Assembly (NCBI RefSeq): GCF_037076345.1
Contig: NZ_AP024702.1
Span: forward strand, 3,968,001 to 4,032,000
DNA from: Haloferula helveola
GTDB lineage: Bacteria; Verrucomicrobiota; Verrucomicrobiia; Verrucomicrobiales; Akkermansiaceae
DNA: 64,000 nucleotides
Direction: 5' to 3'
Each line of letters opens with the position of its first letter. Positions within the stretch are counted from its first letter, which is position 1. A model generated the notes under the pieces. It searched no databases and was not told the origin of the DNA. It worked only from the letters and a program-made list of their open reading frames with translations. This document shows, piece after piece, positions 45,162 through 55,973 of this stretch. The position numbers and the translations under genes are program-made.

Positions 45162-45218
45162 ATGAAACATACTCGATCACGTAAGTTTCAAAACTTCGTC
45201 TTTCCGCTTCTGCTGTGA
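45162..45218 (+). CDS. Short 18-codon ORF overlapping the next gene by GTGA
   Basis: ATG at 45162 opens an 18-residue frame (MKHTRSRKFQNFVFPLLL) that looks like the basic and hydrophobic start of a signal peptide. It ends in TGA at 45216-45218, overlapping the GTG start of the next gene. This could be a translationally coupled leader, or the true start of the next protein separated from it by a frameshift. I cannot tell which. Confidence 0.3.
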   Translation: MKHTRSRKFQNFVFPLLL

Positions 45219-46003
45219 ATGCCTCCTCCAAGATTGCTAGCCTCGCTCTCGCTCTGCTCATTGCGGAGCTTGATGCGGCGTCGCGGCTGGCTGATCGGGT
45301 TCAAGCTGCGCACACCGCCCTGCTTGAAGATCGGAGGGAAGCACTGCCTTCTTTGAGTGATCCCTTCGGTGTTCCGGCTCCCGCCCGGGTGGTTCTTGAA
45401 CACTCCAACGAGCGGTTTCGCCAGGTCGGCGCTTGGCGCGGCAACGTGGTCGCCACCGTCTTCTGGATCGGGGAAGAGCCGACGGTCAACAATCCCACGC
45501 CGAACCACGCGAGCGCCTGGGATCCGAATTGGGAGGCGAACTTCGGTGGTTACGACGATCCCCAGCGGCGCAACGGCCTCTTGCCGGCCGGTTTTGTTCC
45601 GAGGCTGAACCCTTTCTACATCGCCCTGCCCTACAACGACATCGGCTCCGACTGGCGCCATCGTCCCGAGGCCTCGGAAGTGATTCCTTGGTTCTGGCGC
45701 GACTATCGCGGCGAAGGCATTTCGGTTTGCAAGGGCCGCTGGATCGCGGTCCATCTCGACGGCAAGGTTTGCTACGCCCAATGGGAGGACGTCGGTCCGT
45801 TCCAAACCGACCACTGGCAGTATGTTTTCAACGGCGAGGAGCCGCGCGACAACCGTAATGGGGGAGCTGGCATCGATATCAGCCCTGCGGTGCGCGACTA
45901 CCTCGGAGTCCGGAGCGGCGAGCGCGTGCAATGGCGCTTCGTCGAAGCCCGCGACGTTCCACCCGGTCCTTGGAAAACTTGGACCGCCGCCCCGTCCCGT
46001 TGA
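45215..46003 (+). CDS. Exported double-psi-barrel-like (RlpA/3D-like) protein of unknown function
   Basis: 262 residues from the GTG at 45215; no Shine-Dalgarno is visible and the N-terminus is weak. The segment SLALALLIAEL may be part of a signal, see the short ORF just upstream. The conserved body runs from about residue 70: WIGEEPTVNNPTPNHASAWD, FGGYDDPQRRNGLLPAGFVPRLNPFYIALPYNDI, VCKGRWIAVHLDGKVCYAQWEDVGPF, AGIDISPAVRDYLGV, WRFV...VPPGPW. The pattern suggests a double-psi beta-barrel related to RlpA/3D domains, enzymes or binders acting on cell wall. First gene of a run of four exported proteins leading into the pseudopilin cassettes. Confidence 0.65.
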   Translation: MNASSKIASLALALLIAELDAASRLADRVQAAHTALLEDRREALPSLSDPFGVPAPARVVLEHSNERFRQVGAWRGNVVATVFWIGEEPTVNNPTPNHASAWDPNWEANFGGYDDPQRRNGLLPAGFVPRLNPFYIALPYNDIGSDWRHRPEASEVIPWFWRDYRGEGISVCKGRWIAVHLDGKVCYAQWEDVGPFQTDHWQYVFNGEEPRDNRNGGAGIDISPAVRDYLGVRSGERVQWRFVEARDVPPGPWKTWTAAPSR

Positions 46004-46293
46004 TTCGATTGCACCCACCTCACCCTGCTGTTCAACACCCGTCCCTTACTACGAAAACGACACTGATTTCCTAGTCCCACACCCAGCGAAGTTGTCCGGA
46101 GTGCCACCGTCCCAAGTGGTGTTCCGGCGGCCCGGAGAGGGGTTCTGTCCCGAACCGGCATGGCGACCTCCACAGCCAGGAACCACCATGCCTTTTACCC
46201 CTCCGGGCCGTCTTCCCGGGCGATCCGTCCCGATCGCCCGATCCGCGAAGCGACCGCGCTCTTTCAAGTCCCACACCCACACCCAAATCAGCC
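46004..46293. other. Intergenic stretch, 290 bp
   Basis: No gene is supported here. Two copies of a CCCACACCCA motif lie near 46076 and 46270. No terminator is evident. Confidence 0.4.
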
Positions 46294-47145
46294 ATGAAAA
46301 CCAGCCAATGGGCTGCCGTGCCGGCAGCTATCGCCATGATCACCTGTGCGATCATCTCGTCCGGTCCCGCGCTTGCCCAAAGCAGCAACGCTGGCGGAAG
46401 TAAGAAAGCCGATCCGCTCTATCCGGTTGGCAGCCTCGACGCGTATCCGACCTTGGTTCAGACCGGGACTCACCCGACTCTGACTTGGGCGATTCAGTAT
46501 CCGGAGACCTTCGAGGAAATCCTGCGCCGCGATGGCGTTTGCATGGAGCTGCGGGTTCTCGGCGCGCCGAGCATCCTTGGCTATCAGTCGAACGGAAAGC
46601 CGAACTATGCCTACGTCCAGGCCGAGGTGAATATCGGTGACGGAAACTGGGTTCGGTTCTTCTACGATACCCATGAGTGGGTTCAGCCCAATTGGACCTA
46701 CGCCACCGCGAAGACCATCGCCGGCGTTCGTCCGCACTTCCGCGGCCGGGTCTACAATAACGGGTGGTTGCCCTATCAAACGACGGGTACGGGTTCGCCC
46801 GAGGCGGTGGCGCTAACGGCCGGCGATCCGCTCCCGCAGTACGTTCCGGCGATCCAGCGAGGTGAAATCGCGAGCTTTCTTCAGCCCTACGTCGATGCGG
46901 GTGGCTACGTGAAGATTGGCCCGAAGGAACAGCTGATCCTGTTTGAACTGGAAACGACCGACCGGACCTCACCGAAATACGACATGCAGGACCTCGTGAT
47001 CCTCGCGACAGCAGACTACTGCAAGAACAACAACGGCCACGGTAACAACTGGGACGGTGTTGATGTCTCGAATCCGGGGAATGGTCGTGGCGGTCCGAAC
47101 AGCGAAGAGGATCCCTCAGGCGAAATCGACGACGAGAAGAAGTAA
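46294..47145 (+). CDS. Exported protein of the pseudopilin region, unknown function
   Basis: 283 residues with a clear signal peptide (MKTSQWAAVPAAIAMITCAIISSGPALAQ). The body begins PLYPVGSLDAYPTLVQTGTHPTLTWAIQYPE and contains ELRVLGAP, YVQAEVNIGDG, PYVDAGGYVKIGPKEQLILFEL and DMQDLVILATADYC, a layout I associate with uncharacterised verrucomicrobial exported proteins found next to pseudopilin-like genes (recollection, not a search). The C-terminus is Asn/Gly-rich and acidic. It probably lies in one transcription unit with the next two genes (22 bp to the next start). Confidence 0.7.
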   Translation: MKTSQWAAVPAAIAMITCAIISSGPALAQSSNAGGSKKADPLYPVGSLDAYPTLVQTGTHPTLTWAIQYPETFEEILRRDGVCMELRVLGAPSILGYQSNGKPNYAYVQAEVNIGDGNWVRFFYDTHEWVQPNWTYATAKTIAGVRPHFRGRVYNNGWLPYQTTGTGSPEAVALTAGDPLPQYVPAIQRGEIASFLQPYVDAGGYVKIGPKEQLILFELETTDRTSPKYDMQDLVILATADYCKNNNGHGNNWDGVDVSNPGNGRGGPNSEEDPSGEIDDEKK

Positions 47146-47167
47146 CCCCGTCTGTTTATTGATCACT

Positions 47168-47764
47168 ATGAAAGCGCTCTACCTCAGTGCCATTGGCATC
47201 GCTCTAGGCTCCTCGGCCATTGCCCAGGAACGCTGCTGCCAGCCAGGCAGCAACACCCCAAGGGTGTTCCGCGATGCGGCGACTCATGATACAATCGTCG
47301 GTAACGCGAGGCCGCGCCCGAATCCGATCTCTTCCATGCGCCGCGTCGTGATGCCCGAGGAAGTAAAGGTGTCCGAGGCTCCGAAGCCGGAGAGTATTCT
47401 TGCAAGGTCGGAGGTGCTTTATCGCGGAAACATCGCCACTCTCATTCCCAAGCGCGCTGTGCTTCACCTTCCTTCCGGTCTTCGCGGGGCACTGGCTCGT
47501 CCGGCGGAGGGACAAGGCGTCAAGTTCGTGCAGTGGTCGCAGTTCTATGCCGCGAACCGGAGCTGGATCCGCACCGTCGAAGTTACCCGGGCCCAGGCCG
47601 AGGGCATGGAGGCCATGCCTGAGGAGACCGTGGAGAAATTCAAAGAGAGCCGCGAGATGATCGTGGCGACCTACCAGACTGGCCCGATTTCGGTGATGCC
47701 GGTCAAAGAGCCGGAAGCCGCAACCGCCACGACCGACGAAACCACAACTGCCGTTGAACGATGA
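47168..47764 (+). CDS. Exported protein of the pseudopilin region, unknown function
   Basis: 198 residues from the ATG at 47168; the signal peptide MKALYLSAIGIALGSSAIAQ starts here, so the open frame from 47057 is not used. The mature protein is a small domain with ARSEVLYRGNIATLIPKRAVLHLP and KFVQWSQFYAANRSWIRTVEVTRAQA, then a Thr/Glu/Ala-rich tail. Its stop overlaps the next start by four bases (ATGA), a sign of translational coupling. No recognised family. Confidence 0.7.
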   Translation: MKALYLSAIGIALGSSAIAQERCCQPGSNTPRVFRDAATHDTIVGNARPRPNPISSMRRVVMPEEVKVSEAPKPESILARSEVLYRGNIATLIPKRAVLHLPSGLRGALARPAEGQGVKFVQWSQFYAANRSWIRTVEVTRAQAEGMEAMPEETVEKFKESREMIVATYQTGPISVMPVKEPEAATATTDETTTAVER

Positions 47765-48780
47765 AAAGCCTGATTCCTTGTGTCGCCATTGCCGCCTCTG
47801 TTTCATTGGCAGATGCCCAGACTTACACCAACTTCATTCGCCAAATCCAGGTGAACTCCGGGGCGGAGTGGCAGGTGCCCGTCGATCAGGAGGGGCAGCA
47901 GCTCTCACCGCTTCCGATCGATCCGGGTGGAGCCCGTTTCGAACTCTGGACGGTCGACAACGATCAAGTGATCGATTTCCTGCTCGACCAGCGCTACGTC
48001 GGTTCCTACGTCCCGCAGGCTTCCATCACGATTATCAGCGAAGACCCGTATCAAACGATTCCCCGGACTCGTGCGGACCGGCCCTTTACCGTTGAGATCG
48101 ATCTGGATGGAATGCTCTCCGATCCCTCGGCGCCGATGGCGGCCCGCATGGTGAAGCTTCATCAGCACGTCCAGAGTTACGGAGAAGATGGTGTTGGTGA
48201 CGACATCGATCGGGATGATGCGTCGATGATCGCGGAGAGCTATATTGATGAAAACGGGAAAGTGACCCTCACCTACAACCTCACTTCAGTGCCCGGTGAT
48301 GATCGATCCAAGGTTCGGGGCGAAGAGCGATTCACGGTCTTCTCCCTTCCGGACTACATGGTTCCCGAGCAGGTGATTTCCTCGAAGACCGTCCAGATCT
48401 GGCCGGTTGCCGACGGTTCGCTGTCGGGGGTCGTGGATGGCGACAACCTTCGCTTCAACACGCCGACCCTGACGGTCACATTGAATGATCTGTACCCCAA
48501 CTCGAGGACCTACGCCCATGCCTACATGGGGACTCCGGCTTTGGGGACGGCAGGCACCATCATTCCGGGGACCGCCGTGAATATCAACGATGCCGTGCCA
48601 CAGGATCGTGTCCTTACCATCAAGGACTGGGACCAGATCATCACCGATAGTGGGCAGTGGACGATCGAGTTGCTGACGGAGACGCCATTCGGAATCGACC
48701 GCCTCGACTACGTCACGTTCAACATCAACCGTGACATTTCGGTCAACGGCACGGTGACGACCATCGAGATTTCCGACTAG
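47761..48780 (+). CDS. Exported protein of the pseudopilin region, unknown function
   Basis: 339 residues with a signal peptide (MKSLIPCVAIAASVSLADAQ). The body is beta-rich: IRQIQVNSGAEWQVPV, FELWTVDNDQVIDFLLDQRYVGSYVPQASITI, RADRPFTVEIDLDGM, LTYNLTS, ending in a strand-rich segment TFNINRDISVNGTVTTIEI. It reads like a secreted beta-sandwich or pilus-associated ligand. The start is coupled (ATGA overlap) to the preceding gene. A hairpin-like run of G and C lies just after the stop. Confidence 0.7.
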   Translation: MKSLIPCVAIAASVSLADAQTYTNFIRQIQVNSGAEWQVPVDQEGQQLSPLPIDPGGARFELWTVDNDQVIDFLLDQRYVGSYVPQASITIISEDPYQTIPRTRADRPFTVEIDLDGMLSDPSAPMAARMVKLHQHVQSYGEDGVGDDIDRDDASMIAESYIDENGKVTLTYNLTSVPGDDRSKVRGEERFTVFSLPDYMVPEQVISSKTVQIWPVADGSLSGVVDGDNLRFNTPTLTVTLNDLYPNSRTYAHAYMGTPALGTAGTIIPGTAVNINDAVPQDRVLTIKDWDQIITDSGQWTIELLTETPFGIDRLDYVTFNINRDISVNGTVTTIEISD

Positions 48781-48799
48781 TAGAAAGCAGCTGAGCTCA

Positions 48800-48842
48800 G
48801 GGGGGTGTCATGAATGACCTACTTTCCATCGGCACTCCCCCC
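48800..48842. terminator. Possible terminator between convergent genes
   Basis: GGGGGG (48800-48805) can pair with CCCCCC (48837-48842) with a long loop. A perfect palindrome CTGAGCTCAG (48791-48800) sits at the 5' side. It spans the gap between a + stop (48780) and a - stop (48819). There is no U-run, so this is weak. Confidence 0.3.
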
Positions 48843-49415
48843 TCCGGCCGGTTTGGACTCGATACGTTGCCGGAGATTGTCGTTCCGGTAGATCAGGGAG
48901 AACGTTGCCTGACGGGACTTCCGCAGAAGGTCCTCCACTTCGGTGAAGGCAAGCAGGAGGAAGAGGCCGCGTACCGGCTCACGGTGGAACGAGAGGGTAC
49001 GGGTGGTGAAACGGTCCTCGGTTTTCCGTTGCTGTTGATTGGCGGTGAGGGGGCCGAATTCCACGCCAAGTTTGCGTTTCATGGTGTTGAACTCCGCCTC
49101 AATCGCTTCAGCTCCCTTTCCGGGGTCACCGTAGTGAACGGTTACTTCGATCAGCTTCCCGTCGATGAACCTGGCCTCCACCGCCCGTGCCTCGGAATCG
49201 GGCAAGGGGGCGGCAGGCCGCTCGATCCGGAAGACTCTCAACTCGGGCGACTTCCCGGGCATGGTGATTTGGACGTCGAGTTCGTGGCGCCCGGCCCAGT
49301 CGAGGAGTTTGGTCGGAGAGTCACCCCACTTGAGCCCGAAAGGCGGCTCGAGGATGGCTTGGCCGTGGGCGATAGGCATCAGGAAAAGCCAGAACAGGAG
49401 AAGCGCTTTCGGCAT
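48819..49415 (-). CDS. Exported protein of unknown function on the opposite strand inside the pseudopilin region
   Basis: 198 residues from the ATG at 49415, which opens a signal peptide (MPKALLLFWLFLMPIAHGQA); the open frame continues upstream to 49907 only as an antisense shadow. The body starts PPFGLKWGDSPTKLLDWA and contains DGKLIEVTVHYGDPG and FGPLTANQQQRKTEDRFTTRTLSF, resembling the second half of the SHD1-domain protein at 59028-59780 (a similar CFGDNRKEVEQKL start and GKLHENW-type helix). It is divergent from the first GspI-like gene (9 bp between starts), and this is the point where the tandem block begins. Confidence 0.65.
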   Translation of the reverse strand: MPKALLLFWLFLMPIAHGQAILEPPFGLKWGDSPTKLLDWAGRHELDVQITMPGKSPELRVFRIERPAAPLPDSEARAVEARFIDGKLIEVTVHYGDPGKGAEAIEAEFNTMKRKLGVEFGPLTANQQQRKTEDRFTTRTLSFHREPVRGLFLLLAFTEVEDLLRKSRQATFSLIYRNDNLRQRIESKPAGGGSADGK

Positions 49416-49424
49416 GCGCGGAGC

Positions 49425-49910
49425 ATGCCCGCGGCGCGTCGCCGAAACAAGCGCGGTCGTGGCGGCTGGGTTCTGCTTGAGGCGACGTATGCGCTGACGT
49501 TCCTGACGGGGCTTTCGCTGATTTTGCTGAAGCTCGCGATGAACATCACGGCACCGCGGCAGTGGACGCTGCAGCAGACGGTCAGCGACGCGTATCTGAC
49601 CTATGAGAAGGCCTGGGCCCAGCGTCTTCCATATGCGGACCTCCTTGCTGTTGACTCGCCGTGGCCGGCGTATCCGGCGAAGTCCGAGGAGACGGTGGAA
49701 CTGGGCAAGCTGCCCGGCGGGGCTGCGGTGGAGGGCAAGGTGATCCGGACACGGATTCCGGATTCGATCAATTTTCCGGTGGATGGCGGATCGGGCACGA
49801 CGGTGACCAATCCTGCGGGGATGAAGGTGTGGAAGTTCCAGAGCCTGCTGGTCTACGAGATCGGCGGGCGTGACTACGTGAAGAGCCGGACCGTGATCCG
49901 ATCGCAATGA
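49425..49910 (+). CDS. GspI-like minor pseudopilin, cassette copy 1
   Basis: 161 residues from the ATG at 49425. A basic leader (MPAARRRNKRGRG) precedes the prepilin cleavage site G|WVLLEATYALTFLTGLSLILL. Glu lies at position +5 after the Gly and is followed by a 20-residue hydrophobic helix, as in type IV prepilins and T2SS pseudopilins. The rest is a small soluble domain (WTLQQTVSDAYLTYEKAWAQRLPY...). The order with the next two genes matches GspI-GspJ-GspK, the tip trimer of T2SS. It begins 9 bp from the opposite-strand gene start, so its promoter must overlap that gene. It differs from copy 2 by 11 bases, one amino-acid change (Arg/Cys). The function call is inference from architecture. 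Confidence 0.72.
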   Translation: MPAARRRNKRGRGGWVLLEATYALTFLTGLSLILLKLAMNITAPRQWTLQQTVSDAYLTYEKAWAQRLPYADLLAVDSPWPAYPAKSEETVELGKLPGGAAVEGKVIRTRIPDSINFPVDGGSGTTVTNPAGMKVWKFQSLLVYEIGGRDYVKSRTVIRSQ

Positions 49911-50623
49911 TGAGGACGACCCCGAAGACGCGCCGCCGGTGCGGTGGCTACACGCTGATGGAACTGTCGCTGGCGATGGCGGTGGGGATCCTTGTGGCGG
50001 GGATGTCGCTGATGCTCTTCAACCAGCAGATGGCGTTCATCCGGATCTTCCGGGCTCAGGACTTCCTGACGCGCGAGGCGCCGCTGATCAACAACTACGT
50101 GATCCGTGTGATCGGCACGGCGGAGAGCTACGCGCTGTACAAGGACATGGACTCGATGCGCAACGGCGACGGAGCGGTGCTCGAGCACGCGACGGTGCTG
50201 GTCCTGCGGTTCAAGGAGGCGGACGGAACGAAGCGGGCGTCGATCCTGTCGTTCGAGGATCCGGGGACGGGCAGCGGGCTCTACTACACGGTGATTCCCG
50301 ATAGCGGGGTGCTGGGCGCGCCCGACTGGGCGGTGAGCAAGCAGCCCGAGGCGGTGAAGTTCGCGGTGGAGCAGGGAGTGCTGCGGATGCGCCTGTCGGG
50401 ACCCAACGGCGAGGAGCTTGTGTATTCGGGAACCCAACAACTGTAACGGTCATGAAGAACTTGAAGATGGAATCGAAGCGCAAGCGCGCGCCGCGGGGCT
50501 ACGCGTCGTATGTGACGGTGCTGACGCTTGGGATCATCGTTTTGGTGATGCTGCTCAACAGCTACCGGACGTCGATCCGGGCGCACGCGGCGCAGAAGGA
50601 GGTCACGCTTCGCATCGACTATG
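49444..50623 (+). repeat. Tandem repeat block, copy 1 (GspI-like, GspJ-like, start of GspK-like)
   Basis: This 1180-bp block recurs at 52761-53940 with constant offset 3317 bp. I count about 18 differences (about 98.5% identity). They are clustered: eight lie within 49631-49677 and five within 50034-50085. The repeat ends sharply at the codon for the 57th residue of the third gene. Confidence 0.9.
49907..50446 (+). CDS. GspJ-like minor pseudopilin, cassette copy 1
   Basis: 179 residues; the start overlaps the previous stop by four bases (ATGA), a coupled pair. Prepilin motif G|YTLMELSLAMAVGILVAGM with Glu at +5, after a basic leader (MMRTTPKTRRRCG). The soluble part is a beta-rich domain with VLVLRFKEADGTKRASILSFEDPGTGSGLYYTVIP and VLRMRLSGPNGEELVYSG. 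Position and motif fit a GspJ-like subunit. Six bases differ from copy 2, causing one residue change (His/Asp in LE-H/D-ATVLVL). Confidence 0.72.
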   Translation: MMRTTPKTRRRCGGYTLMELSLAMAVGILVAGMSLMLFNQQMAFIRIFRAQDFLTREAPLINNYVIRVIGTAESYALYKDMDSMRNGDGAVLEHATVLVLRFKEADGTKRASILSFEDPGTGSGLYYTVIPDSGVLGAPDWAVSKQPEAVKFAVEQGVLRMRLSGPNGEELVYSGTQQL

Positions 50624-52620
50624 CCGACAAGGAGGATGAGATTCTCCGCGCGGTTGTGAATCTGACTCCGAACCGGGCAATCCGGGCAATGACGCATGAG
50701 TCGGACGCCACATCGGCGAGTCGCAACCCCCTGCGTTGGGGCAACATCTTTTCGGACGCCTTGGACCAAGTGAATGCCAGAGAGTCGGTGGCGACCGCAA
50801 TGCTCAACAATTTCGGGCTGCAGGACGCTCGGGTGGCGAATACCGGCGATACCGCGTTTCCCAACGTGAATGCCGTGTTCGACGCGATCGAGCCTGAGTC
50901 GGGATACGTCGCGCCGGGTATTGGCCGGAGTCTCGGCGCCGGATTTCCTGCCCCTCTTGAGACTGCCAATGTGGATATCATCAACGATGATCGGGTCTTT
51001 CCCATCATCAGCCGCCAAAAGATCTATGGTCCACTTGCCGCAGGCGAGGTGGGGCTTCCGGTGGATGAGTATCCCGAGTTCAATCTGATCTCATTTCCCG
51101 AGATCCGCTTCAGCTACACCGAGCCGGGCCAGCCCTTCGTTGCGAAGAGGAATTGGTGGGCCTTCAGCCTCGATTTGGCGGATGCCGACGATCATCTGAC
51201 CGGTTTGGATCGAATGGAGCGAGACTTCATCATCTCGATCTATGAGATCCCGTCGCAGCTTGCGATTTCCGCCGAAGCTTTCGCCATCCTGGGTCAACAC
51301 GAGGACGGGAGCATGTGGGAAAACGCCTCGGTCGAAGGGGCGGTTTTCGCGACCCGGGCAAAAGTCGAGGAGGGGATGGATTTGTCCCGGATTTCGGGGC
51401 GGCGAGGCCTTGAGTTCGGAGATGGAGTGAAAATCGACAGCAAGGCGGTCGCCAGTGATCCATTCGCTCCGGGGGTGAGGGAAAAGTTCGAAATCGATTA
51501 CGGCGAGTTCCTGCCGGTGTCTCTGGCTTCGGAAGCCGGACGTGCGGCATTTCTTCCGATTAACCGCGGTCCCGACTTCTTCGACCGGTACTCCCATAGC
51601 CCGGAAACCAACACGGTTTCTCCGACCACGTGGAACGATTACTCCGTGGGTGCGATGCAGTGTGCCATGAGGTTGGACGTCACCGAGGTCGCGGGTGAAT
51701 TCGACAAGACTCCTACCGAGTTGCGGTTCCAGTATTTCAAGGGAGGAACCCGGCAATCGGTTGATATCTCGTTGATTCCGGATCCGGCGACAGGACTGCC
51801 GCCCGGATACATCTACTGCTGCGACGAGGATGAGATGGTGAACTTTCCTTATCCGGTGGATGTAGCCTACGGCAAGAATGGCAGCTACTATTACGAGGAG
51901 GCCGTTGTCGGCGACATCACCTTCAACAACGCCCGCTTCGGCGACCCTCTTGTCGGAACGTTCAAGGCTGGTTATTTCAAGCCAAGTTTTCCGTGGAACG
52001 TGAGCCTTCTTCACGAGGAAAAATGGTGCATCGAGATCTACCCGGAACGATTCAAGAAGTTCCTTGAGCTGCTTGGGGGTGATTCGCTGGCGGTGAACCA
52101 CTCCGTGGCGGTGAATGTCGATCACCGTAGCAACGCAGACATAGCAAAGCCGTCGATTCCCTGCGCCGAACACGACTATGGCGTCATCCTAAAGGAATGC
52201 GCAGATCTGACGAGTTTCACCGAGGGATTCTCGCTGGTCACGAACCTGCGACTGTATATCGCAGATGACTTCAATACGGCTACGATACCCCCACCCGCTG
52301 GATCGGGGATACCGGATCCCTTCTATCCACCATCTTCGCTTTTTGCTCCCGAGAAACGTTATGGTGCCGAGACCAATCCCCTGAGGCTGAAAATCGGAGG
52401 TCAAGTGGGTAGTTTGGCAGGGGATACCGGCGAGTCCGGTCAAAAAGTCCATTTGCTGGATCTCAGAGACGCAACGGAGGCGGACATGGCCCATGATCGC
52501 ATTGAAGTCAATCTGACCCAGATCCGTCACCCGGAGGCCTTGCCACCGATCACGATGATGAACTGGCTGATCATGGTCGAGGAGCGGCGAGCTGAGTTCT
52601 ACGTGGCGCAAAGCCCTTAG
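50452..52620 (+). CDS. GspK-like large minor pseudopilin, variable body, copy 1
   Basis: 722 residues. A basic leader (MKNLKMESKRKRAPR) precedes G|YASYVTVLTLGIIVLVM, a prepilin-like helix lacking Glu at +5, as in GspK. The first 57 residues are identical to copy 2; from residue 58 the two proteins differ at about half of positions. The large body has strong conserved blocks also in copy 2: FPEIRFSYTEPGQPFVAKRNWWAF, SIYEIPSQLAISAEAF, RISGRRGLE, FLPVSLASEAGRAAFLPINRG, DVAYGKNGSYYYEE, NARFGDPLVGTFKAGYFKP and GFSLVTNLRLYIADDFN. No known ectodomain family recognised. This body may present a ligand at the filament tip. Codon third positions are more AT-rich than in the constant part. Confidence 0.72.
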   Translation: MKNLKMESKRKRAPRGYASYVTVLTLGIIVLVMLLNSYRTSIRAHAAQKEVTLRIDYADKEDEILRAVVNLTPNRAIRAMTHESDATSASRNPLRWGNIFSDALDQVNARESVATAMLNNFGLQDARVANTGDTAFPNVNAVFDAIEPESGYVAPGIGRSLGAGFPAPLETANVDIINDDRVFPIISRQKIYGPLAAGEVGLPVDEYPEFNLISFPEIRFSYTEPGQPFVAKRNWWAFSLDLADADDHLTGLDRMERDFIISIYEIPSQLAISAEAFAILGQHEDGSMWENASVEGAVFATRAKVEEGMDLSRISGRRGLEFGDGVKIDSKAVASDPFAPGVREKFEIDYGEFLPVSLASEAGRAAFLPINRGPDFFDRYSHSPETNTVSPTTWNDYSVGAMQCAMRLDVTEVAGEFDKTPTELRFQYFKGGTRQSVDISLIPDPATGLPPGYIYCCDEDEMVNFPYPVDVAYGKNGSYYYEEAVVGDITFNNARFGDPLVGTFKAGYFKPSFPWNVSLLHEEKWCIEIYPERFKKFLELLGGDSLAVNHSVAVNVDHRSNADIAKPSIPCAEHDYGVILKECADLTSFTEGFSLVTNLRLYIADDFNTATIPPPAGSGIPDPFYPPSSLFAPEKRYGAETNPLRLKIGGQVGSLAGDTGESGQKVHLLDLRDATEADMAHDRIEVNLTQIRHPEALPPITMMNWLIMVEERRAEFYVAQSP

Positions 52621-52684: not shown

Positions 52685-53227
52685 ATGTTCAGCCTTCCGT
52701 CCCTCTCAGAATCTGCCCGTCGCACCCGACCGAGCAGCTTGAGGCGTCGTCGACGCCGTCGAAACAAGCGTGGTTGTGGCGGCTGGGTTCTGCTTGAGGC
52801 GACGTATGCGCTGACGTTCCTGACGGGGCTTTCGCTGATTCTGCTGAAGCTCGCGATGAACATCACGGCACCGCGGCAGTGGACGCTGCAGCAGACGGTC
52901 AGCGACGCGTATCTGACCTATGAGAAGGCCTGGGCCCAGCGTCTTCCGTATGCGGACCTGCTTGCGGTGGACTCGCCATGGCCCGCCTATCCCGCGAAGT
53001 CCGAGGAGACGGTGGAACTGGGCAAGCTGCCCGGCGGGGCTGCGGTGGAGGGCAAGGTGATCCGGACACGGATTCCGGATTCGATCAATTTTCCGGTGGA
53101 TGGCGGATCGGGCACGACGGTGACCAATCCTGCGGGGATGAAGGTGTGGAAGTTCCAGAGCCTGCTGGTCTACGAGATCGGCGGGCGTGACTACGTGAAG
53201 AGCCGGACCGTGATCCGATCGCAATGA
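52685..53227 (+). CDS. GspI-like minor pseudopilin, cassette copy 2
   Basis: 180 residues from the ATG at 52685 or 162 residues from the TTG at 52739; the second matches the leader length of copy 1 better. Long Arg run (RRRRRRRNKRGCG), then G|WVLLEATYALTFLTGLSLILL, with Glu at +5. The mature part is identical to copy 1 except for one Arg/Cys change before the cleavage site. A 64-bp gap follows the first GspK-like stop. No Shine-Dalgarno visible. Confidence 0.72.
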   Translation: MFSLPSLSESARRTRPSSLRRRRRRRNKRGCGGWVLLEATYALTFLTGLSLILLKLAMNITAPRQWTLQQTVSDAYLTYEKAWAQRLPYADLLAVDSPWPAYPAKSEETVELGKLPGGAAVEGKVIRTRIPDSINFPVDGGSGTTVTNPAGMKVWKFQSLLVYEIGGRDYVKSRTVIRSQ

Positions 53228-53940
53228 TGAGGACGACCCCGAAGACGCGCCGCCGGTGCGGTGGCTACACGCTGATGGAACTGTCGCTGGCGATGGCGGT
53301 GGGGATCCTTGTGGCGGGGATGTCGCTGATGCTCTTCAACCAGCAGATGGCATTCATCCGGATCTTCCGGGCGCAGGATTTCCTGACGCGCGAAGCCCCG
53401 CTGATCAACAACTACGTGATCCGTGTGATCGGCACGGCGGAGAGCTACGCGCTGTACAAGGACATGGACTCGATGCGCAACGGCGACGGAGCGGTGCTCG
53501 AGGACGCGACGGTGCTGGTCCTGCGGTTCAAGGAGGCGGACGGAACGAAGCGGGCGTCGATCCTGTCGTTCGAGGATCCGGGGACGGGCAGCGGGCTCTA
53601 CTACACGGTGATTCCCGATAGCGGGGTGCTGGGCGCGCCCGACTGGGCGGTGAGCAAGCAGCCCGAGGCGGTGAAGTTCGCGGTGGAGCAGGGAGTGCTG
53701 CGGATGCGCCTGTCGGGACCCAACGGCGAGGAGCTTGTGTATTCGGGAACCCAACAACTGTAACGGTCATGAAGAACTTGAAGATGGAATCGAAGCGCAA
53801 GCGCGCGCCGCGGGGCTACGCGTCGTATGTGACGGTGCTGACGCTTGGGATCATCGTTTTGGTGATGCTGCTCAACAGCTACCGGACGTCGATCCGGGCG
53901 CACGCTGCGCAGAAGGAGGTCACGCTTCGCATCGACTATG
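52761..53940 (+). repeat. Tandem repeat block, copy 2
   Basis: Second copy of the 1180-bp block (see 49444-50623). It starts inside the Arg-rich leader of the GspI-like gene and ends at base 53940 (GACTATG); beyond it the sequence shares no clear nucleotide match with copy 1. Clean ends at the same position in both copies. Confidence 0.9.
53224..53763 (+). CDS. GspJ-like minor pseudopilin, cassette copy 2
   Basis: 179 residues with the same coupled ATGA start and the same prepilin motif (G|YTLMELSLAMAVGILVAGM, Glu at +5) as copy 1. Only one residue differs (Asp instead of His in the LE-D-ATVLVL segment). The synonymous differences cluster around 53351-53402. Selection for near identity or recent gene conversion would explain this. 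Confidence 0.72.
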   Translation: MMRTTPKTRRRCGGYTLMELSLAMAVGILVAGMSLMLFNQQMAFIRIFRAQDFLTREAPLINNYVIRVIGTAESYALYKDMDSMRNGDGAVLEDATVLVLRFKEADGTKRASILSFEDPGTGSGLYYTVIPDSGVLGAPDWAVSKQPEAVKFAVEQGVLRMRLSGPNGEELVYSGTQQL

Positions 53941-55973
53941 ACTCGAAAGAGGAGGCTACCCTTCGTGCTATTGTTCCGATCGCCGCAAACCGAGCCATGC
54001 GATGCATGCAGCACCAGTCCGCAGCGGGCAACAATGACTATGAGCTTCGATGGCAGCGAATCTTCCGCGCGGCGATCGACGAGTCGAATTCCGCCTACGC
54101 GGTCGAGTCCGCGGTGTTGCGGGAGTTCGGATTGCAGGATGCGGTTGATGCGAATCCCGGCGACAAGCAGCTTTATGCGTCGGAGACCTTCCGCGCCTAC
54201 GACCGCGACAACCGTTACACGACGCCCGGTATCAATCAGGATTTCGGTCTGGGATTTCCAGTGCCACTGGAGAGTGTGAGCAGTCAGGTCAATGACTTGG
54301 ACCATACGTGGCCAATCATCAGCGATAAAAAGCATTATGGATCATTGGCTGCGGAGAAGGTTGGCGCCTCGGTTGAGGACTATCCGCAGTTCAATCTGAT
54401 TCCCTACCCCGAGATCCGCTTCGGCTATGCCGAGCCTGGAGAGATGTTTGTGGCAAAGCGCAATTGGTGGGCGTTCAAGATGAATCTCTCGGAACACCAC
54501 GACAACATTACCAAGCTCCGGAAGCGGACGAGGGAGTTTGTGTTTTCGATCTATGAGGTCCCCTCACAGCTCGGCATTTCGGCAGAAGCCTTCACGGTCC
54601 TGGGGCAATACGAAGATGGCACCGAGTGGCAGAACTTCACTATCCAGGGCGGGGTGTTCGCAAGTCGTGCAAGGATCGGATCGGGATTGAATCTCGATCG
54701 GATCTCGGGCCGGCACGGGCTGGAGATTGACGCCAATGCCACGTTTGGCGACGAGGCCGCGCCGGGTACGATCGAGAGTGGTAGTGACGGTGGCCTCACC
54801 GCCAATCCCTTTGCTCCGGGAGTTCGCGAGTCGTATGAGCTTGAGAACGGCGATTTCCTGCCGGTCTCTCTCGCCTCTGAGAGTGGTCGCGCTGCTTTCA
54901 TCCCCATCAACCGTGGAGTCGAATTCTTCGATCGATTTGCGCACAATCAGGAGACGCAGACGGTCTCTCCAACGACGTGGAACAACTATTCGGTCGGCGC
55001 CCTTCAGTGTGCAATGCATCTCGACATCACGGATGTGAAGGACGCGGACGACCCATACCCTTCGGAGCTTGAGTTCAGCTTCCTGAAGAACGGTTTGAGG
55101 CAAACGGTCGAAATCGGACTGGAAGAAGGCAACGACATAGGTCTTCCGCCCGGCTACATCTACATCGCGGACGAAAACGAGACCGTGTTCTTCGAGCAGC
55201 CTGTGGATGTCGCATATGGGAAGAACGGCAGCTACTACTTCGAAGAAGAGGTGGTTGGATCAGTCACGTTCGAGAATGCGCGATTCGGTGATCCCTTGGT
55301 CGGCACCTTCAAGGCCGGCTACTACCGCCCGAGTTATCCGTTCGAGGTGAAGATGCTCCATGATGCGAAGCCCTGCATCGAGGTCTACCCTGAGCGATTT
55401 CCTGATTTCCTCGCCCAGCTGGGCGCCGACTCAGTAGAGGTAAACCACTCTCTGTCGATCAACGTAGACTACCCTGGAAGCGCCTATTTGCAGAAGCCAT
55501 CTATTCCGTGCACCGAACTGGATTACGGAGTGATTCTAAAAGAATGCGGTGATTTGACTCCGTATCCGAAGGGTTTTTCGCTCGTCACCAATCTTCGGCT
55601 CTACATCGCGGATGACTTCAACGTGGCCGAGACGACTCCTCCTGCCGGGTCGGGAATCCCGACCCCCTATTATCCTCCCTGTTCGTTGTTTGCTCCCGAA
55701 AAGCGCTACGGGGCGGAAGACATCCCTTTCCGGCTGAAGCTGGGTGGTCAAATGGGTAGCTTGGCGGGCGGTGCTGACACCGGGACCGAATCAGTCCACC
55801 TCTTCGACCTGAAAACGGCGATGGAAGGTGATGTTGCCCACGATAAGATCGAGGTCAATCTCTCGCCGATCAAGCATCCGGCTGCCTTGCCTCCGATCTC
55901 GATGATGAACTGGCTCGTCGTGCTCGAGGAGCGGAGAAGCGAAATGTACACCGGTAAGGCGGCGGCGAATTGA
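53769..55973 (+). CDS. GspK-like large minor pseudopilin, variable body, copy 2
   Basis: 734 residues; the first 57 are identical to copy 1, then the sequence diverges (about half of residues shared). Conserved blocks remain in the same order: YPEIRFGYAEPGEMFVAKRNWWAF, RISGRHGLEI, FLPVSLASESGRAAFIPINRG, DVAYGKNGSYYFEE, NARFGDPLVGTFKAGYYRP, GFSLVTNLRLYIADDFN and MMNWLVVLEERRSEM. The copy has an insertion (about 12 residues) around residue 330 compared with copy 1. The stop is 6 bp from the convergent zinc-ribbon gene. Role as above: a second, different tip subunit. Confidence 0.72.
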   Translation: MKNLKMESKRKRAPRGYASYVTVLTLGIIVLVMLLNSYRTSIRAHAAQKEVTLRIDYDSKEEATLRAIVPIAANRAMRCMQHQSAAGNNDYELRWQRIFRAAIDESNSAYAVESAVLREFGLQDAVDANPGDKQLYASETFRAYDRDNRYTTPGINQDFGLGFPVPLESVSSQVNDLDHTWPIISDKKHYGSLAAEKVGASVEDYPQFNLIPYPEIRFGYAEPGEMFVAKRNWWAFKMNLSEHHDNITKLRKRTREFVFSIYEVPSQLGISAEAFTVLGQYEDGTEWQNFTIQGGVFASRARIGSGLNLDRISGRHGLEIDANATFGDEAAPGTIESGSDGGLTANPFAPGVRESYELENGDFLPVSLASESGRAAFIPINRGVEFFDRFAHNQETQTVSPTTWNNYSVGALQCAMHLDITDVKDADDPYPSELEFSFLKNGLRQTVEIGLEEGNDIGLPPGYIYIADENETVFFEQPVDVAYGKNGSYYFEEEVVGSVTFENARFGDPLVGTFKAGYYRPSYPFEVKMLHDAKPCIEVYPERFPDFLAQLGADSVEVNHSLSINVDYPGSAYLQKPSIPCTELDYGVILKECGDLTPYPKGFSLVTNLRLYIADDFNVAETTPPAGSGIPTPYYPPCSLFAPEKRYGAEDIPFRLKLGGQMGSLAGGADTGTESVHLFDLKTAMEGDVAHDKIEVNLSPIKHPAALPPISMMNWLVVLEERRSEMYTGKAAAN

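Follow-up and report, generated by a model that had tools for sequence, protein, structure and literature searches.

Described type IV filament systems and the locus under study

The type IVa pilus combines PilB- and PilT-like ATPases, a PilC-like platform, a secretin and prepilins with a set of minor pilins (PilV/PilW/PilX) placed beside exported genes, and PilY1-type proteins work with minor pilins. Here, we describe a group of genes with a comparable composition in a 64,000-nt stretch of the genome of Haloferula helveola (NZ_AP024702.1, a single contig of 5.68 Mb; G000:C1:3968001-4032000), hereafter referred to as the window. The group consists of five genes for exported proteins (P1-P5) and two cassettes of three pseudopilin-like genes each (a-b-c). 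P2-P3-P4 are referred to as the triad, and P2-P3-P4-a-b-c as the six-gene unit. On balance, we favour the view that these genes form the tip-and-accessory module of a lineage-specific, pilus-like type IV filament system in one verrucomicrobial order.

In spite of the likeness to the type IVa pilus, the machine proteins associated with this locus fall below the curated PilB, PilT and PilQ cut-offs, and P2-P4 match neither PilY1 nor any other family. The protein encoded by c is also far larger than PilX. GspE/F/D-like parts and GspI/J/K-like minor pseudopilins are shared with the type II secretion system (T2SS), but a PilT-like ATPase is present here and no tested protein reaches a Gsp cut-off. 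Verru_Chthon cassettes of verrucomicrobia also encode prepilin-like proteins with a large member. The a-b-c genes were rejected as cassettes of this type, since c has no TIGR02600 match and none of the places found with TIGR02600 falls on a c gene. Elsewhere in the genome, 15 Verru_Chthon_A-like (TIGR02600) N-termini in frames of 1114-1320 aa, all under the cut-off, make up a large divergent set.

According to the available excerpts of its description (PMC6561018), ComZ of Thermus thermophilus (PDB 6qvi) is a DNA-binding pilin with an inserted beta-solenoid, which is argued to be located at the pilus tip and whose pilin domain is closest to that of GspK. Like c, ComZ is a large pilin-like protein without standard pilin motifs that stands beside smaller pilins, and it is the best fold match of c; the two differ in that they share only about 10% identity over the alignment, with a Z of 6.8. 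No P2-P4-like partner genes are named for the comZ locus in these excerpts.

The Amuc_1098-1102 pilus of Akkermansia is a type IV-like pilus of the same order, and its MUL2 genes (Amuc_1099-1102) are conserved in this order (excerpts of PMC13174399). The secretin of the machine studied here (mD), however, scores only 42.3-55.8 bits against NF042912, while the cut-off is 750. Two full-length secretins of the Amuc_1098 type are encoded elsewhere in the H. helveola genome (G000:C1:660751 and 4407219; 1190.5 and 1032.1 bits). The machine was therefore rejected as the Amuc_1098/MUL2 pilus, and H. helveola apparently has more than one kind of type IV filament system, several in all. Literature searches on verrucomicrobial pilins and type IV pili found no description of the genes considered here, in agreement with the suggestion of the first-pass annotation that they had not been described as one unit.

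Conserved gene order and the core unit

The run begins on the plus strand with P1 (45215..46003, 262 aa), P2 (46294..47145, 283 aa), P3 (47168..47764, 198 aa) and P4 (47761..48780, 339 aa), and the stop codon of P3 overlaps the start codon of P4 in an ATGA at 47761-47764. P5 (48819..49415, 198 aa) is encoded on the minus strand and separates P4 from a; the start codons of P5 (49415) and of the first a gene (49425) are 9 bp apart. The first-pass annotation had listed four co-directional exported genes, the last two coupled, and a fifth, small one on the opposite strand at the cassette junction, and this description was confirmed. The first cassette (49425-52620) consists of a1 (49425..49910), b1 (49907..50446) and c1 (50452..52620), and the second (52685-55973) of a2 (52685..53227), b2 (53224..53763) and c2 (53769..55973), all on the plus strand. 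The start codon of a2 is uncertain; its row in the family alignment starts at 52739.

Orthologues in the same frames and the same order were present in 20 regions around chosen P4 hits, two of which run off the contig before c and one of which is an orphan triad. P1-P5 are therefore real genes rather than chance open reading frames (ORFs). Identities to the window proteins, paralogues from the same genome excluded, were 62-77% for P1, 46-67% for P4 and 48-68% for P5. A crude export heuristic (hydrophobic decamer plus small-x-small, used instead of SignalP) was satisfied by 24 of 24 P2, 22 of 24 P4, 19 of 23 P3, 13 of 16 P1 and 14 of 15 P5 rows.

The conserved synteny expected for a functional unit was strongly supported, as the run and the cassettes recur across relatives. 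P4 and c occur together in 87 of the 192 related genomes that served as one common set for the presence/absence survey of P4, c and the machine ATPase mE. The places of these hits were taken among the matches listed and are lower bounds; both places were listed for 78 of the 87 P4-c genomes and for 79 of the 82 c-mE genomes. In 58 of the 60 genomes with both listed hits on one contig, P4 and c are no more than 6 kb apart.

The order P1-P2-P3-P4-[P5 reversed]-a-b-c is found behind mutL in genera g1 and g13, mostly with a zinc-ribbon gene beyond. Family f2 displays P2-P3-P4-a-b-c without P1 and P5 (L044, L054; the triad is divergent in L058), and family f4 has P3-P4-a-b-c. In genera g12 and g16, the triad can be found beyond the opposite end of the cassette or be rearranged (L120, L121, L126, L140). 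For gene-order counts, 66 regions were fetched, some of which overlap or come from one genome and are thus not independent. Gene c was identified in 51 of these, accompanied by b in 47, a in 46, P3 and P4 in 44 each, P2 in 30, P5 in 27 and P1 in 26. With P5 ignored, P4 is the next same-strand gene upstream of a for 40 of the 52 a genes in the fetched regions, the gap between the P4 and a profile matches being 24-163 bp where P5 is absent and 612-778 bp where it is present. In three loci from families f1 and f2 (L124, L128, L138), the expected P2 position is occupied by an unassigned ORF carrying the P2 tail motif described below.

The core is thus P3-P4-a-b-c, usually with P2. P1 and P5 were mostly added at the level of families: in f1, P5 is inserted in antisense, and P1 is a frequent neighbour that is very conserved there. 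The proposal that the run is one unit is supported for the core, with the qualification that P1 and P5 are not part of it. Any transcript from P4 to a in H. helveola would cross P5 in antisense (48780-49425); in other families, nothing separates P4 from a.

Co-occurrence with one filament machine

The survey of the 192 genomes revealed P4 in 90, c in 92 and the mE orthologue in 84. Besides the 87 genomes with both P4 and c, three had P4 only, five had c only and 97 had neither; P4 and mE were shared by 81 genomes, and c and mE by 82. All three genes were present in 80 genomes and all absent in 96. Orthologues of mE were required to score at least 300 bits, a threshold chosen after seeing the gap between 349.8 and 237.3 bits. 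The association persists when stratified by genus (Cochran-Mantel-Haenszel p of 8e-12, 4e-11 and 9e-10), a procedure that leaves relatedness within genera. All three genes are present in seven and absent in 13 genomes of genus g23, and present in four and absent in eight of genus g9. In a control that counted looser PilB-like ATPases, mostly 31-38% identical, 186 of the 192 genomes matched; only the specific mE orthologue group therefore tracks with P4 and c.

Among the 79 genomes with both places listed, c and mE are on one contig in 44 and 4-14 kb apart in 36, including H. helveola (12.8 kb). The closest arrangement is exemplified by L138 (G134), in which 18 co-directional genes follow one another as P3 P4 a b c m10 m9 m8 mT mG mMN mO m7 mD m6 mE mF m5. 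When 387 genomes were drawn evenly across the phylum, 17 were matched by the P4 profile, all from the order to which the window belongs. A scan of a named genome collection yielded 106 relatives, from which 78 distinct loci were kept; all titles were verrucomicrobial, and the closest was Haloferula rosea (66%). Some contigs of metagenome-assembled genomes in this collection are labelled Akkermansia muciniphila by title.

Several genomes contain more than one unit. Two P3-P4-a-b-c units stand in tandem in G122 (L131), and two are found on separate contigs in G165 (L166, L167). In G030, P2-P3-P4-a-b-c occurs at four places (L132, L160, L161 and L162, the last with P2 reversed), in addition to P2-P3-P4-c beside the machine (L139) and an orphan triad (L163); one mE orthologue was found in this genome among the matches listed. 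An orphan triad with no pilins nearby is also present in H. helveola (L008:9283-11573).

Taken together, P3-P4-a-b-c, usually with P2, is very probably one genetic unit, which has been copied as a whole and whose presence or absence coincides with that of one particular machine. The alternative, that stable proximity is all that joins the exported run to the pilins and that P2-P4 have an unrelated envelope function, is highly improbable. It could draw on the orphan triads (L008, L048, L163), on c cassettes without P4 nearby (L122, L133) and on the mutL and zinc-ribbon neighbours, which are likewise conserved in the genus of the window. The order of the unit, however, persists across families f1, f2 and f4 while its outer neighbours change. 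A mere local neighbourhood was rejected on the co-occurrence, including co-presence and co-absence within genera, on the genus-stratified association, and on the copying of the block together with its pilins. The idea of a dedicated surface or secretion system, put forward in the first-pass annotation, gains support from the machine that tracks with the run and from the multi-copy units of G122, G165 and G030.

The filament machine

A search of the H. helveola genome for T2SSE ATPases returned 11 places, one of which, mE, lies 12.8 kb from c2. It belongs to a cluster (L114, G000:C1:4031000-4050500) with genes at 4032.3-4048.3 kb, 8-24 kb past cassette 2 and beyond the window end. All of its genes are on the minus strand, in the order m10, m9, m8, mT, mG, mMN, mO, m7, mD, m6, mE, mF, m5 and m4-m1. 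They include a PilT-like ATPase (mT), a pilin (mG), a secretin (mD), a PilB-like ATPase (mE), a GspF/PilC-like platform protein (mF) and a pilin-like protein (m5), in addition to several envelope genes without assignment. The assignments of mT, mD, mE and mF are based on Pfam matches above cut-off, such as PF00437 for mE (272.9 bits, cut-off 24.9), PF00482 for mF (119.1 bits, cut-off 25.2) and PF00263 for mD (115 bits, cut-off 27.5). Intact Walker A and B motifs were present in 25 of 25 mE and 21 of 21 mT ORFs, and paired CxxC motifs in 25 of 25 mE ORFs. The pilin signature G[ML]TL[LI]E was identified in 22 of 23 mG proteins. In some genomes of family f2, mG is tandemly duplicated two- to three-fold (L137:15194-16686, L141, L146).

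No family match was obtained for mMN and m7. Judged by gene order and topology only, mMN, mO and m7 are putatively PilMN-, PilO- and PilP-like. The products of m9 and m10 read as an ABC-transporter-like pair; this pair and m8 adjoin the PilT-like gene in many relatives. The system as a whole contains four of the components by which the type IV filament superfamily is defined in its broad sense, namely a PilB/GspE-type ATPase, a PilC/GspF-type platform, class III prepilins and a secretin.

These components would also be expected if the machine were a T2SS-like system, in which a, b and c would form a short periplasmic piston of GspI/J/K-like proteins and P2-P4 would be its substrates or a surface complex delivered by it. 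The pilin domain of ComZ, the best fold match of c, is itself closest to GspK (excerpts of PMC6561018). The best NCBIfam match of mF is GspF (121.9 bits, cut-off 424), mO gave a weak GspM match (E 0.0012), and P2-P4 adjoin the pseudopilins. The scores of mE and mD with GspE (288.3 bits, cut-off 630.25) and GspD (128.1 bits, cut-off 351.35) are nearly as good as those with PilB (310.2 bits) and PilQ (135.4 bits), but the slight difference is in favour of the pilus proteins. The cluster contains, moreover, the PilT-like ATPase (pilT_fam, 249.6 bits, below the cut-off of 319.1), which type II secretion systems are not known to possess. Scans against NCBIfam and Pfam recognised no enzyme-like substrate among P1-P5. 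The machine is therefore likely to be pilus-like and not a secretion piston, mostly on account of the PilT-like ATPase, and we regard the T2SS-like explanation as unlikely.

Pseudopilin cassettes and the putative tip pilin

The genes a and b encode prepilin-like minor pilins. The b1 protein has the class III signal GYTLMEL, with an N_methyl match of 18.2 bits that is below the cut-off of 21.2. In the b family, TIGR02532 was matched by 12 of 20 members and the pattern G[FY][TS]LxE by 43 of 51. The third gene encodes a large pilin-like protein (722 aa in c1) and a predicted tip pilin, the modelled structure of which resembles ComZ. None of 21 c proteins matched any NCBIfam model at E 5, and weak Bactofilin and FapA matches were obtained for single members of the c family. 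The c model (mean predicted local distance difference test score, pLDDT, 77.0) has a long N-terminal helix. In a Foldseek search against PDB, its top three matches were three ComZ chains (E 8.4e-5 to 1.7e-4); these were the only hits below 0.001, the next one being at 0.22. GspK, CofB and PilX are missing from the fold matches listed for c, which is no evidence against them. A tip role for c is plausible in view of this model.

If the resemblance to ComZ extended to function, the system could be a natural-competence pilus with c as a DNA receptor at its tip and P2-P4 assisting DNA capture. ComZ surpasses all other solved structures as a match to c, and it is a DNA-binding protein for which an association with the tip has been proposed (excerpts of PMC6561018); the PilT-like ATPase also fits this explanation. 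On the other hand, the fold match is moderate, and multiple diversified tip units agree better with the recognition of varied ligands than with that of DNA. We therefore consider a competence pilus to be improbable, about as much so as the secretion system, and retain the pilus-like filament with a tip-and-accessory module as the preferred reading.

In both H. helveola and G013, cassettes 1 and 2 are 93-100% identical over a stretch that extends from the early part of a into the N-terminal region of c, and 49-83% identical beyond it. The near-identical stretch of the window is located at 49475-50575 and in the matching part of 52739-53900, after which identity falls to 49-74%; over their entire length, c1 and c2 are 62% identical, with near-identical N-termini. 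The same stretch is 73-91% identical between the two species. Identity is thus higher within a genome than between the species, the mark of recent gene conversion; the short pilins have evolved in concert in these two genomes. The cassette duplication is therefore older than the present likeness of the copies. In G014, this stretch is only 67-83% identical between its copies.

The exported proteins and the modular tail motif

No NCBIfam or Pfam match was obtained for P1-P5. PDB sequence searches with profiles of P1, P2, P3, P4, c and mMN gave chance matches or none, and a Pfam scan of every aligned P1, P2, a and c member revealed only weak prepilin motifs and chance hits in single members. The prediction that P1 is a double-psi-barrel protein could not be confirmed, as P1 has no Pfam, NCBIfam or PDB-sequence match. 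P4 was modelled (mean pLDDT 81.7) as a row of beta-sandwich domains resembling Ig, FnIII or macroglobulin folds. Its fold matches are many and generic, include RbmA and adhesins, and yield no function.

The C-terminal tail of P2 (47026..47142, plus strand) carries the modular motif NNGHGNNxDGVDxSNPG...DDE, which is present in 12 of 39 P2 ORFs. Outside P2, the motif was detected in P4 at five loci and in ORFs without assignment, and L131 has a related version of it in c. A degenerate DNA pattern of the motif was found in 30 of the 192 genomes, 27 with P4 and three without, and its reversed control in none. Of the 39 places, 29 are within 2.5 kb of a listed P4. The pattern thus occurs in 27 of 90 genomes with P4 versus 3 of 102 others (Fisher p 1.4e-7, relatedness being ignored). 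In the three genomes lacking P4, its carriers are a prepilin-like protein (G131; N_methyl 18.4 bits, below the cut-off of 21.2), a protein with a pilin-like N-terminus by eye and no Pfam match (G157), and a long protein with Ig-like domains, part of which resembles the G157 protein by eye and whose fetched stretch has no start (G188). The separate link of the motif to pilin-type proteins supports the view that P2 and P4 are filament-associated. The motif belongs to no Pfam family, a literature text search for its letters found nothing relevant, and it is possibly ion-binding. Its use as a genome-wide sorting tag was rejected for H. helveola, in which the motif occurs at one place only.

Proposed function and points to the contrary

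According to the reading favoured here, a, b and c would act as minor pilins in priming the filament and capping its tip, with c as a large tip pilin of the ComZ/GspK type. P2, P3 and P4 would be exported by Sec and act together with the tip; the chances that they do so are about even. P4 could serve as a multi-domain beta-sandwich presenter, with P2 and P3 as its partners or chaperones, in the way PilY1-type proteins act with minor pilins. The filament would exit via the dedicated secretin, and the PilT-like ATPase may retract it. Additional or orphan triads and six-gene units may represent alternative tips for one machine. A more far-reaching version is rather speculative: a new branch of type IV pili, in which one motor-and-secretin machine per genome serves one to several interchangeable six-gene tip modules, which are diversified by block duplication, have gene-converted short pilins and c N-termini, and are marked by a mobile NNGHGNNxDGxDxSNPG segment found in tip proteins and pilins in turn.

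Several observations weigh against the proposed module. The agreement between c and ComZ is modest, with TM-scores of about 0.16-0.26 and, in VIA-align, a Z of 6.8 at an rmsd of 4.3 over 260 aligned residues; according to the tool, a match with a Z below 8 may reflect only a common arrangement. The fold of P4 is generic, its best Z of 9.3 being accompanied by an rmsd of 12.9, and both the location of P2-P4 at the tip and their interaction with pilins are only inferred. In the machine, none of mT, mE, mD and mF reaches the curated NCBIfam cut-off of its best-scoring family. Stricter motif patterns failed for the His box in 14 of 21 mT and for the Asp box in 25 of 25 mE ORFs. The presence pattern of P4, c and mE is mixed in 16 of the 192 genomes, some of which are rather complete (G036, G065, G098, G078, G160), and orphan triads indicate that P2-P4 can live apart from pilins. 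By listed places, c and mE are 59 kb to 2.7 Mb apart in eight genomes and on different contigs in 35, from genus g1 and others. In most of genus g1, the tip cluster has become separated from the machine; therefore, the spacing of 12.8 kb in H. helveola is unconvincing if taken alone.

Implications for the Verrucomicrobiota

Water, soil and guts all harbour abundant Verrucomicrobiota. The known pilus of the order examined here, that of the Amuc_1098/MUL2 type, is implicated in glycan attachment. Of the 192 relatives sampled, 84 (about 44%) have a second, distinct filament machine, with exported putative tip partners that match no family in the libraries used. The genes described provide a concrete list for testing how particles, other cells or DNA are bound by these bacteria, and the ligand may be a glycan, a cell surface or DNA. 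If the multi-copy tip modules are indeed alternatives for one machine, type IV pili would offer here an unusual example of tips exchanged as modules.

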